Assembly (NCBI GenBank): GCA_016929195.1
Contig: JAFGJG010000034.1
Span: 1-49,197, forward strand
Reading direction: 5' to 3'
Origin: Thermoleophilaceae bacterium
GTDB taxonomy: Bacteria; Actinomycetota; Thermoleophilia; Solirubrobacterales; Thermoleophilaceae
DNA length: 49,197 nucleotides
Shown here: positions 7,617-40,717 of the stretch, one piece after another
Numbering within the stretch: position 1 is the first letter of the stretch
How the letters are laid out: each line of letters opens with the position of its first letter
The notes under the pieces: generated by a model
What the model saw: only the letters and a program-made list of their open reading frames with translations
Told to the model about the DNA's origin: nothing
The model's database searches: none
Translations under genes and position numbers: made by a program

Positions 7617-8099
7617 GTGGACCCGCGCCGGCTCCGCCTCGGCGAGGTGCTCCTGGCCGCATCGGGGGTCGCCCTGCTCGTGGCGCTCTTCCTGCCGTGG
7701 TACGGCCCCGACCTGACAGGCTGGGAGGCGCTCGGCGTGGTGGACGTGATCCTCGCGCTCGTCGCGGCCTGCGCGATCTCGGTGACGCTCGCCACGGCCT
7801 TCTTCCGAGTCGCCGCCGTGCCGATCGCGCTGGACGCGCTCGTGACGCTCTTCGGCCTCGTCGCGCTCCTGCTGATGCTGTTCCGCGTGCTCGACGTGCC
7901 CGGTGAGGCGTCCGGGCGCGAGGCCGGCCTCTGGGTCGCGCTGGCCGCCGCCGCCGGCGTCGTCGTGTCCGGCTGCCTCGCCATGCGCGACGAGCGCCTG
8001 GCGGCCCCGGGCAGGTACAACGACGCCACCGGCCGCCCGGTGCCGAAGCCGCCCGACCCCGAGCCGCTGCGGGCGCCGCCGCCCGGGACGACGTCGTGA
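7617..8099 (+). CDS. Four-helix integral membrane protein of unknown function
   Basis: A 160-residue protein not recognised as a named family. After a short basic start come about four hydrophobic segments (roughly 10-27, 40-62, 64-90 and 104-124). The first ends in FLPWYG, which is common in small actinobacterial membrane proteins. A cytosolic Pro-rich tail (about 135-160, KPPDPEPLRAPPPGT) follows. The GTG start follows the folD stop with no gap, and the stop overlaps the thioesterase start (GTGA), implying tight co-translation. Confidence 0.75.
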   Translation: MDPRRLRLGEVLLAASGVALLVALFLPWYGPDLTGWEALGVVDVILALVAACAISVTLATAFFRVAAVPIALDALVTLFGLVALLLMLFRVLDVPGEASGREAGLWVALAAAAGVVVSGCLAMRDERLAAPGRYNDATGRPVPKPPDPEPLRAPPPGTTS

Positions 8100-8467
8100 C
8101 GCTCGAGTCCGGGCTGGAGCGCACCGACGAGTTCGTCGTCGAGGACCGGCTGCTCACCGACGTGGGAGGGACGCTGCCGGTGAGCGTCCTGTCCACGCCC
8201 GGCATGATCGCGATGATGGAGCGCTGCGCCGCGGTGCTCGCCTTCGAGCACCTGGGCGAGGGCGGGGGGACCGTCGGGTTCGAGGTCTGCGTGAAGCACG
8301 TGGCCGCCGCCGGCGAGGGAAGCACCTGCACCGTGACGGCGCGCCTGCGCGAGGTCGTGGACGACCGCAAGCTGCGCTTCGACGTCGAGGTCAAGGAGGG
8401 CGAGCGGACCATCGGCGTCGGCACGCACGAGCGGCGCGTGATCCAGCGCGCCGCCTTCGGGGGCTGA
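8096..8467 (+). CDS. Hotdog-fold thioesterase, FlK-like
   Basis: A 123-residue single-domain hotdog protein resembling fluoroacetyl-CoA thioesterase FlK and related acyl-CoA thioesterases. The FlK-type triad is visible with near-native spacing: Thr34 (STPGM), Glu42 (MMERCA) and His69 (VCVKHVA). The real acyl-CoA substrate is unknown; most FlK-like genes lie outside fluoroacetate producers and probably act in general acyl-CoA housekeeping. It is the last gene of the pcrA unit, starting with GTG overlapping the upstream stop. A palindromic repeat follows within 6 nt. Confidence 0.82.
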   Translation: MTLESGLERTDEFVVEDRLLTDVGGTLPVSVLSTPGMIAMMERCAAVLAFEHLGEGGGTVGFEVCVKHVAAAGEGSTCTVTARLREVVDDRKLRFDVEVKEGERTIGVGTHERRVIQRAAFGG

Positions 8468-8472
8468 CCCGG

Positions 8473-8519
8473 AACCGTCCTGCCTTCTGGTTGCAGGGCA
8501 ACCACGCGGCAGGACGCTT
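8473..8519 (+). repeat. 47-bp dispersed palindrome, family 1, copy 1
   Basis: Outer arms AACCGTCCTG (8473-8482) and CAGGACGCTT (8510-8519) flank an inner perfect stem TGGTTGC (8488-8494) / GCAACCA (8498-8504) with loop AGG. It is the same length and layout as copies at 8614-8660 and 40671-40717. The site is 6 nt after the thioesterase stop. Confidence 0.85.
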
Positions 8520-8613
8520 GGCAATGAATGCGCACAGGCGCGTGACGGCGCCGCTCCGGACCGACTCACTCACTGCCGTCGTTCTCGTAGCTGAGCTGTG
8601 TGCCACGTGCAGC

Positions 8614-8660
8614 AAGCGTCCTGACTTCTGGTTGCAGGGCAACCACAGGACAGGACACTT
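8614..8660 (+). repeat. 47-bp dispersed palindrome, family 1, copy 2
   Basis: Arms AAGCGTCCTG (8614-8623) and CAGGACACTT (8651-8660), inner stem TGGTTGC (8629-8635) / GCAACCA (8639-8645), loop AGG. It lies 24 nt upstream of the gatC -10 element. The 94 nt between copies 1 and 2 contain no gene I can support. Confidence 0.85.
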
Positions 8661-8684
8661 CGCGTGGGTCGGCGCGGCCGACCC

Positions 8685-8697
8685 TAGAATCGCGGCC
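8685..8697 (+). promoter_or_regulatory. Leaderless promoter of gatCAB
   Basis: TAGAAT (8685-8690) is followed by exactly 7 nt and then the gatC GTG at 8698. There is no Shine-Dalgarno sequence in between. Confidence 0.6.
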
Positions 8698-8985
8698 GTG
8701 ATCGATCGCGACCAGGTCCTCCACGTGGCGCGCCTCGCCCGGCTCCGGCTGACCGATGCGGAGGTCGACGCAATGGTCGAGGAGCTGCCCAAGATCCTCG
8801 GCCACATCGAGACGATGGAGGAGCTCGACCTCGAGGGCGTCGAGCCCACGTCCCACGTCGTGCAGGTCGAGAACGTCCTGCGTCCCGACGAGCCCCGCCC
8901 GAGCCTGCCGCGCGAGAAGGCGCTCGAGCCGGCCCCCGACCCGCAGGACGGCGGGTTCGGCGTCCCCAGCCCGGGGCGCTCGTGA
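8698..8985 (+). CDS. gatC: Aspartyl/glutamyl-tRNA amidotransferase subunit C
   Basis: A 95-residue GatC, the belt that wraps GatA and GatB in the tRNA-dependent amidotransferase. The family pattern V-xx-[VL]-A-x-LARL (QVLHVARLARLRLTDAE) is at the N-terminus, followed by ILGHIETMEELDLEGVEPTSHV and the DEPRPSLPREKAL tail. The GTG at 8698 is chosen because translation begins with the usual 'DRDQVLHVARLA' and the -10 hexamer is 7 nt upstream. Its stop overlaps the gatA GTG (GTGA). Confidence 0.95.
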   Translation: MIDRDQVLHVARLARLRLTDAEVDAMVEELPKILGHIETMEELDLEGVEPTSHVVQVENVLRPDEPRPSLPREKALEPAPDPQDGGFGVPSPGRS

Positions 8986-39058: not shown

Positions 39059-40671
39059 GCGACGGCGCGCAGGGCCCCGCGCGAGTCCTCGTCAAGGAGA
39101 AGATCGGCGACTCGGGCGTGCAGCTCCTGCGCGACTCCGGCCTCGACGTCGAGGTCGGTGTCGACTGGTCCGATGAGGAGCTGGAGAGCCGAATCGGCGA
39201 GTTCGACGGGCTGCTGATCCGCTCCGCCACGAAGCTGGACGCCGGCCTGATCGACAGGGCCGAGCGCCTGCGCGTGGTCGGCAGGGCCGGCGTGGGGGTG
39301 GACAACGTGGACGTGGACGCCGCCACGAAGCGCGGCGTGGTCGTCGCGAACGCGCCGCAGTCGAACGTCATCACCGCCGCCGAGCACACCGTCGCGCTCC
39401 TGCTCGCGCTCGCGCGTCGCGTACCGCAGGCGCACGCGTCGCTGATCGGCGGCGCCTGGGAGCGCTCCAGCTTCAGCGGCGTGGAGCTGTACGAGAAGAC
39501 GCTCGGGGTGCTGGGCTTCGGCCGGATCGGCCAGCTCGTCGCCCAGCGCGCGCTCGGCTTCGGGATGCACGTCGTCGCCTTCGACGCCTACGTCGCGGAG
39601 GAGCGCTTCCGCGAGGTCGGCGTGGAGCGTGCAGAGAGCTCCGACGATCTCTACGAGCGGGCGGACTTCATCACGATCCACCTGCCGGTCACCGACGAGA
39701 CCCGCGACTGGCTCGACGCCGAGGCCTTCGCGAAGATGAAGGACGGCGTGCGCGTGATCAACGTCGCCCGCGGCGGCCTGCTCGTGGACGAGGACCTCAA
39801 GGAGGCGCTCGACTCCGGCAAGGTGGCCGGCGCCGCGCTCGACGTGTTCCGCGAGGAGCCCGTGACCGAGCACCCTCTGTTCGGCTATCCCAACGTCGTC
39901 GTCACCCCGCACCTGGGCGCCTCCACCACGGAGGCCACCGACCGGGCCGGGTTCCAGGCCGCGGAGCAGGTCGTGGCCGCGCTGACCGGCGGGGTCGTCA
40001 CCTCGGCCGTCAACGTGCCGGCCATCGCGGCGGAGGACCTCGAGGCCCTCGGCGGCTTCCTGCCGCTCGCGCGCGACCTCGGCCGGATCGCCACCGCGCT
40101 GGCCGAGGGCACGTCGGTCGACGCGCTCGAGGTCGAGTACCGCGGCCGGATCGCCGAGCGCGACACCCGCCTGCTCACCGTCCAGGTGCTGAAGGGCGCC
40201 CTGGCCGGCCACACCGAGGAGGAGGTCAACGACGTGAACGCGCCCGCGATCGCGCATGAGCGCGGGATCGCCGTGACCGAGACCAACACTGCGACGGCAC
40301 GCGACTTCACCGACCTCGTCCGCGTGACCGTGGTGAGCGGCGGCGAGCGGACGCGGGTGGTGGGCACCACGCTCGGCAGCGCCCATCGCTCGCACCTGCT
40401 GGAGGCCTGGGACTCGCGCTTCAACCTCCAGCTGGAGGAGCACCTCGCGATCTTCCGCTACGAGGACCGCCCAGGAATGCTGGGCCGCGTGGGCACCAGC
40501 TTCGGCGAGGCCGGCATCAACATCGTCTCCGCCGCCGTCGGCCGCGGCTCCGAGGAGTCGAACGGCCAGGCCACGATGGTCGTGACCTCCGACGCGCCGA
40601 TCCCGCAGGAGATCGTGGACCGCATCGCGGGCACCGACGGCTTCGTCGCCGGCCGCACCATCTCGCTCTGA
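39055..40671 (+). CDS. serA: D-3-phosphoglycerate dehydrogenase
   Basis: A 538-residue long-form (type I) SerA, the first step of serine synthesis. The split substrate domain surrounds an NAD domain with LGFGRIGQLVAQRA (about 150-165). Catalytic elements are INVARGGLLVDE and the terminal His of VVTPHLGAST. An allosteric substrate-binding domain (about 320-450) and a C-terminal ACT domain (AIFRYEDRPGMLGRVGTSFGEAGINI) are both present, as in mycobacterial SerA, so serine feedback is likely. The GTG start overlaps the aminotransferase stop. Confidence 0.96.
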   Translation: MSDGAQGPARVLVKEKIGDSGVQLLRDSGLDVEVGVDWSDEELESRIGEFDGLLIRSATKLDAGLIDRAERLRVVGRAGVGVDNVDVDAATKRGVVVANAPQSNVITAAEHTVALLLALARRVPQAHASLIGGAWERSSFSGVELYEKTLGVLGFGRIGQLVAQRALGFGMHVVAFDAYVAEERFREVGVERAESSDDLYERADFITIHLPVTDETRDWLDAEAFAKMKDGVRVINVARGGLLVDEDLKEALDSGKVAGAALDVFREEPVTEHPLFGYPNVVVTPHLGASTTEATDRAGFQAAEQVVAALTGGVVTSAVNVPAIAAEDLEALGGFLPLARDLGRIATALAEGTSVDALEVEYRGRIAERDTRLLTVQVLKGALAGHTEEEVNDVNAPAIAHERGIAVTETNTATARDFTDLVRVTVVSGGERTRVVGTTLGSAHRSHLLEAWDSRFNLQLEEHLAIFRYEDRPGMLGRVGTSFGEAGINIVSAAVGRGSEESNGQATMVVTSDAPIPQEIVDRIAGTDGFVAGRTISL

Positions 40672-40717
40672 AGCGTCCTGACTTCTGGTTGCCCTGCAAC
40701 CACGGGGCAGGACGCTT
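40671..40717 (+). repeat. 47-bp dispersed palindrome, family 1, copy 3
   Basis: Perfect outer arms AAGCGTCCTG (40671-40680) and CAGGACGCTT (40708-40717), inner perfect stem TGGTTGC (40686-40692) / GCAACCA (40696-40702) with loop CCT, the complement of the AGG loop in copies 1 and 2. It begins on the last base of the serA stop and ends 4 nt before the next -10 hexamer. Confidence 0.88.

Follow-up and report, generated by a model that had tools for sequence, protein, structure and literature searches.

What is the 47-bp palindrome with two stems that recurs in this Thermoleophilaceae genome, and which partner, if any, could account for its spread? The window, i.e., the whole stretch of DNA analysed (49,197 nt), contains three copies (Table 1), which a sequence-only reading had taken for a REP or small mobilised palindrome and perhaps a transcription insulator.

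The palindrome in the window and in its own genome

The consensus, AAGCGTCCTG-N5-TGGTTGC-N3-GCAACCA-N5-CAGGACGCTT, spans 47 bp and consists of 10-bp outer arms, 5-nt spacers, a 7-bp inner stem and a 3-nt loop; the number of consensus matches expected in shuffled sequence was 0 (100 shuffles). The positions, common length and loops (AGG, AGG and CCT) given by the sequence-only reading were all correct. Its identical outer arms are exact in copy 3 only, copies 1 and 2 having one arm mismatch each. The loop of copy 3 had been described as if inverted, and only this loop is swapped; since the asymmetric spacers (ACTTC on the left, CGGGG on the right) keep their orientation, the copy is not inverted as a whole. 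A place directly after a stop codon, claimed for all copies, applies to copy 1 (5 nt) and to copy 3, which has one base in common with the stop codon, and not to copy 2, which lies in the same spacer as copy 1. The serA-like neighbour of copy 3 carries D-3-phosphoglycerate dehydrogenase domains.

Table 1. Positions of the palindromes and neighbouring genes in the window, and of the bracketed gene elsewhere in the same genome
Feature	Position	Strand	Remark
Palindrome copy 1, loop AGG	8473–8519	+	Consensus match with 1 outer-arm mismatch
Doublet interior, 94 nt	8520–8613	+	Shares homology with the other five doublet interiors in the genome
Palindrome copy 2, loop AGG	8614–8660	+	1 outer-arm mismatch; orientation as copy 1, 141 bp downstream
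Whole doublet, 188 bp	8473–8660	+	Both same-genus genomes lack it in the orthologous spacer before gatC
Palindrome copy 3, loop CCT	40671–40717	+	Exact consensus; serA-like gene and zinc-binding dehydrogenase gene on either side
Gene 5′ of the doublet, FlK-type thioesterase domain	8096–8467	+	Stop 5 nt before copy 1
gatC	8698–8985	+	Start 37 nt after copy 2
AbiEi/nuclease gene, 303 aa	G000:C55:38418–39326, outside the window		Bracketed by two palindrome copies

As single-stranded DNA, each window copy folds alone on either strand with no equally stable fold among 200 shuffles (copy 1, −17.0 kcal/mol, 0/200 as low). Neither a sigma-70 promoter in a scan of 8300–8900 nor a T-tract round the window doublet was found, and an Rfam search of the window returned 0 matches. 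Read as one RNA strand, the entire doublet forms a single long hairpin (−92.4 kcal/mol, z −4.6), within which the two palindromes pair with each other.

Throughout the window's own genome (G000; 3.46 Mb in 193 contigs, assembly 97.6% complete), 38 copies were found. Up to 3 mismatches were permitted, yet none of the 38 departs from any of the 26 specified positions, and rescanning the own-genome stretches with up to 6 substitutions returned the same 38. Counting and mapping the copies, the check proposed with the sequence-only reading, yielded a dispersed palindrome rather than no further copies. A covariance model added 1 weak match (L161, contig C14, 2501–2547, 32 bits), which is either a strongly diverged copy or chance; with these 38 copies and only 1 weak match, the distribution of copy quality is bimodal.

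Among the 38 copies, 26 of 47 positions are invariant, and the spacers, loop and ends vary freely. Six pairs of copies form doublets, four at 141–142 bp and two at 116–118 bp, always in the same orientation, and their interiors are mutually homologous (15/15 pairs with at most 1/200 shuffles as good). These interiors share 46–65 identical positions over 94–99 alignment columns, the two short ones 35/71 with each other; an extra hairpin from the interior arms is significant in 1 of 6. In our reading, the 26-position invariance would reflect sequence constraint and not simply a recent origin of the copies, since the interiors of the doublets, presumably of about the same age, have diverged far more. 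A host function of the sites is another possible cause, which counts against the explanation preferred below. Compensatory change within the stems of this genome did not exceed that in shuffles, because the stems hardly vary.

The gene between two palindromes

One full unit of palindrome, gene and palindrome was found in the genome, on contig C55 (Table 1), with the GTG start codon in the loop of the 5′ palindrome and the TGA stop codon in the left arm of the 3′ palindrome, the two copies being 924 bp apart. The same unit occurs in a relative (G058), with 914 bp between the copies and ATG in the loop. Next to the C55 unit, four neighbours belong to ordinary metabolic or protease genes, with no AbiEii among them, and the flanks of the unit are not syntenic in the two same-genus genomes (G001 and G002).

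The encoded protein matches AbiEi_4 at residues 11–57 (E 7.3e-10) and MTES_1575 at 224–291 (E 4e-5, below the curated cut-off), and PADLOC labels it AbiEi (5e-21). In a set of 32 homologues, 31 match AbiEi_4 and 29 match MTES_1575, both at E 0.01; E203, D230, E241 and H248 are invariant in the 32 proteins, and D257 is conserved in at least 90%. Profile matches of these proteins include 3hrl (1.1e-5) and, weakly, 3r3p, a "Mobile intron protein" (0.019) that we take to be I-Bth0305I. MTES_1575 is named as a Vsr-family REase in PMC3710099. NCBIfam has no family for the 303-aa protein, and a single-sequence search of the PDB gave 0 matches.

The 36 copies dispersed elsewhere in the genome resemble the palindromes of this gene, with a median of 41/47 identities to the 3′ palindrome and 39/47 to the 5′ one, and no more than 30/47 to the other start palindromes in the comparison. 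Of these 36, 30 retain the TGA of the 3′ type and 0 have a start codon at the loop position. Furthermore, the doublet L022 matches the gene at its start (score 27, 0/300 shuffles) as well as at its end (24, 4/300), and the other five have no significant match to the gene ends. At least this one doublet looks like an internally deleted gene unit; for the other five, such an origin would follow only through the family likeness of the interiors.

The covariance model detects the palindrome family in 15 of 61 genomes; these extend to another family of the order, with 40 matches in G058 (both strands counted). A search of genome contigs found the palindrome in 3 stretches only, from two MAGs, and viral contigs gave 0 matches. 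The inner stem is altered in step on both sides, to TGTTGC/GCAACA, in G058 and G001. Taken alone, the solo copies of G018 have 31 G-T versus 12 A-C arm mismatches, and doublets of this genome lie 71–74 bp apart (L122, L124, L125, L126, L127). The spacings of 71–74, 116–118 and 141–142 bp in the two genomes are approximately multiples of 23.6 bp, half a palindrome. In G058, two copies (L118, L119) are followed by identical downstream sequence resembling a cut-short 5′ end of the nuclease gene.

The 188-bp window doublet is missing between the thioesterase gene and gatC in G001 and G002, where the left and right flanking alignments end with no more than about ten bases between them; that one empty site shows no target-site duplication. 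The REP-like dispersal seen by the sequence-only reading is therefore joined by lineage specificity at the single site tested. Other loci of relatives have their repeats at different positions: within gene order shared by G014 and G000, the copy of G014 that follows an aligned gene end (L138) is missing from the corresponding position in L047.

The gene itself is broken in some relatives, with about 360 bp deleted from the middle in G001 (contig C92) and two stops in G018. A close gene without a palindrome match (R1) occurs in G007, G008, G009, G013, G016 and G023; a match with no close gene listed occurs in G003, G030 and G057. In G001 and G018, all the genes are broken. Gene and palindrome are imperfectly coupled across genomes, which counts against the explanation preferred below.

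Start palindromes of the paralogues

Among 53 paralogues with 35–100% identity to P0001, a strong palindrome (inverted-repeat score of at least 10) lies at the start of 29, versus 19 of 368 windows shifted by 180–540 nt (p 5e-18), and 24/53 starts have none. With the best offset allowed, 40/53 starts have at least 13/22 paired positions, and ATG or GTG falls at nt 24–26 of 47 in 29 of these 40; picking the offset for pairing inflates the pairing and not the place of the start codon, which lies beside the exact centre. Across paralogues, three or four types of Watson-Crick pair are seen at most arm positions. The same layout occurs with different sequences, and across the paralogues the anatomy of the palindrome is kept with a sequence private to each. 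For 21 of 73 genes (drawn from the paralogue loci and 27 loci of a phylum-wide search), no other region matches the 5′ region better than the 3′ region of the same gene, with about 1 expected; examples are L247, L246, L217, L192 and L188. Two more genes, L233 and L245, match better inverted.

Phylum-wide, such a protein was found in 22 of 198 genomes (1e-20), and 9 of 27 start windows scored at least 10. Three genomes chosen for clear palindromes at their genes (G203, G060 and G133; 384–400 kb sampled from each) contain cognate copies beyond the units, namely 1 each in G203 (L284) and G133 (L307) and 5 in G060 (L297, L291, L305 twice and L296, whose E-value does not beat that of the best decoy). 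No homologue of the AbiEi-nuclease gene was found in the stretches L284, L291, L296, L297, L305 and L307. In the L214 family of G060, the outer arms are nearly kept, and both halves of the inner stem have been exchanged (CTGTTG/CAACAG, CCGTCG/CGACGG, TGCACG/CGTGCA).

A candidate mechanism, its alternatives and known systems

We consider it probable that a single-gene element, in which the AbiEi/nuclease gene stands between two palindromes, has this palindrome as its cognate site. Two monomers of the protein would most likely occupy the palindrome at its two 22-bp half-sites, which are separated by 3 bp, and in this way would repress the gene that encodes them and that has its start codon in the loop. 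The Vsr/EDxHD-like nuclease domain would act at palindromes, and repair or strand transfer would carry them, single or as doublets, to new places, the whole gene occasionally spreading too. According to PMC7319586, AbiEi represses its operon and binds a pair of 23-bp inverted repeats with 3 bp between them. The safest part of what we propose is that the protein, through its AbiEi domain, would bind the palindrome and repress its own gene, because the 22+3+22 palindrome matches that operator geometry with the start codon at the 3. Spread by the nuclease would be the most economical link of the bracketed gene, solo copies, doublets and empty site, all of which are observed directly. Besides the imperfect coupling and the possible host function named above, several results speak against this explanation: no target-site duplication at the empty site, non-syntenic flanks of the gene unit in G001 and G002, 24/53 paralogue starts and 18 of 27 phylum-wide start windows below a score of 10, and five of six doublets without a significant match to the gene ends.

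Sites of an AbiEi-type repressor without mobility, the dispersed copies being selected host regulatory sites, would explain the invariance of 26/47 positions among 38 copies, and the autoregulation of AbiEi via inverted repeats of the same geometry (PMC7319586) would agree with such an operator. Nevertheless, this appears unlikely. Of 32 sites in the genome, 2 are at contig ends and the other 30 comprise 22 convergent, 7 tandem and 1 divergent gap, by the classes of a home-made gene caller; the 22 convergent sites lie mostly no more than some tens of bases from stops, where no promoter is expected. Matched copies also occur at gene ends, and the doublet is missing at the orthologous place in both same-genus genomes.

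The same bias (22/30 palindrome sites versus 22/193 other adjacent gene pairs in convergent gaps, Fisher p 4e-12) fits both insertion tolerance and a bidirectional terminator, and the hairpin is stable on either strand as single-stranded DNA. That the copies are bidirectional terminators or insulators, spread by their usefulness at convergent gene ends with the AbiEi-nuclease link secondary, is nonetheless decidedly unlikely in our judgement: there is no T-tract round the doublet, arm mismatches on the sense strand of the start palindromes show no G-U preference (29 G-T versus 39 A-C, p 0.27), and the exact sequence identity and the loop start codon at each paralogue would be left unexplained. 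An RNA hairpin as the selected form was itself rejected, given no compensatory excess in the stems of the own genome and no G-U excess in the start palindromes.

In a homing-like scheme, solo palindromes would be vacant cleavage sites, a gene homing into one would yield the palindrome-gene-palindrome unit, and recombination between the direct copies would restore a solo. The EDxHD-like invariant residues, the weak profile match to a mobile-intron endonuclease, the palindrome directly repeated round the gene and the stops in several gene copies speak for such a scheme. Yet 36/38 copies lie away from the gene unit, the doublets form a homologous family of their own, and both palindromes round the gene are intact, whereas insertion usually destroys a homing site; we regard this scheme as very unlikely. 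The last alternative, a classical REP whose mobilising RAYT/Y1 transposase escaped assembly, has in its favour the general REP look and the 97.6% completeness, which could leave a gene missing. It is scarcely credible, as the search for such a partner advised by the sequence-only reading found 0 Y1_Tnp (PF01797) in the own genome and in 0/15 palindrome-bearing genomes among the 61, 6 others of which carry one, the stem foot has neither a GTAG nor a CGTC tag (copies begin AAGY, AACC, GAGY, GACC or CACC), and the gene flanked by palindromes is the AbiEi/nuclease gene; the RAYT/Y1 association was rejected accordingly.

The palindrome family, which we prefer to regard as cognate sites of the bracketed gene, could be compared with four known systems. 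RAYT genes are flanked by their own REPs, which are dispersed, intergenic and different between lineages (PMC2817692). Like REP/RAYT systems and REPINs, the present family consists of short imperfect intergenic palindromes, as singles and doublets, in tens of copies (38 copies, 6 doublets), its repeats differ by lineage, and a gene for a DNA-cutting enzyme, here putative and unrelated, is flanked by its own repeats. Unlike them, it has no Y1/HUH transposase and no GTAG tag, an AbiEi-Vsr-like protein instead, start and stop codons inside the repeats, and 47-bp repeats of two stems that are mostly direct, not inverted, round the gene.

With AbiE type IV toxin-antitoxin systems, it shares the AbiEi_4 winged helix and inverted half-sites of 22–23 bp that are 3 bp apart (PMC7319586), but the nuclease domain is fused, AbiEii is absent among the four neighbours of the unit in G000, and the palindrome lies on the start codon, again at the stop codon, and dispersed. 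According to a review (PMC3943268), the target on which EDxHD enzymes dimerise is nearly 60 bp long. With the homing endonuclease I-Bth0305I of this group, the protein may share a Vsr-like domain, in which E, D, E and H are invariant among the homologues here (3r3p, E 0.019, weak); unlike it, the present gene is free-standing, with intact bracketing palindromes, an AbiEi DNA-binding domain and many solo sites. CGTC-tagged REPs, which have 8–9-bp stems, similarly lack a RAYT, no transposase gene flanked by CGTC units being described in PMC3733652, and differ from the present repeats in the CGTC tag.

The family is REP-like in behaviour and neither a member of the REP/RAYT systems nor a complete AbiE system; of the original interpretation, the dispersed REP-like palindrome holds, and the partner is an AbiEi/Vsr-like nuclease gene rather than a RAYT. 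To our knowledge, REP-like repeats have until now been connected with one enzyme class, the Y1 transposase. No enzyme is known for the CGTC family of REPs (PMC3733652). In the open-access literature searched, nothing was found linking DUF559 or AbiEi-nuclease genes to palindromic repeats, a passage of PMC12907096 on a Caulobacter Vsr-like protein included. The pairing of repeat and gene appears new as such, and its working may prove a variation on REP/RAYT.

Beyond this genome, we tentatively propose, at somewhat less than even chances, that AbiEi-Vsr-like genes of several Actinomycetota lineages form an unrecognised selfish class, each encoding a nuclease for its own palindrome of about 47 bp, starting within it, often ending in a second, and seeding solo copies; such a class would be the convergent counterpart to REP/RAYT, with a nuclease of restriction type at its base. 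If true, a second, unrelated gene family would become a candidate mobiliser for orphan repeats, many genes annotated only as AbiEi-type antitoxin or DUF559 would gain a testable function and target, and these would be site-specific nucleases whose long target is readable from their own start codon.

Two minor observations concern the surroundings of the relatives' genes. In six loci selected for a visible T-arm (L179, L180, L181, L182, L207, L208), the start of the AbiEi-nuclease gene lies no more than about 50–100 bases downstream of a tRNA-Ser gene. A leader, GGGGGCGAA-nTCG, was not seen before the solo copies of G000; it precedes the start palindrome of most close paralogues (L179, L180, L199, L201, L172 and others), about 30–40 nt before the start codon, and is possibly a promoter or translation element.
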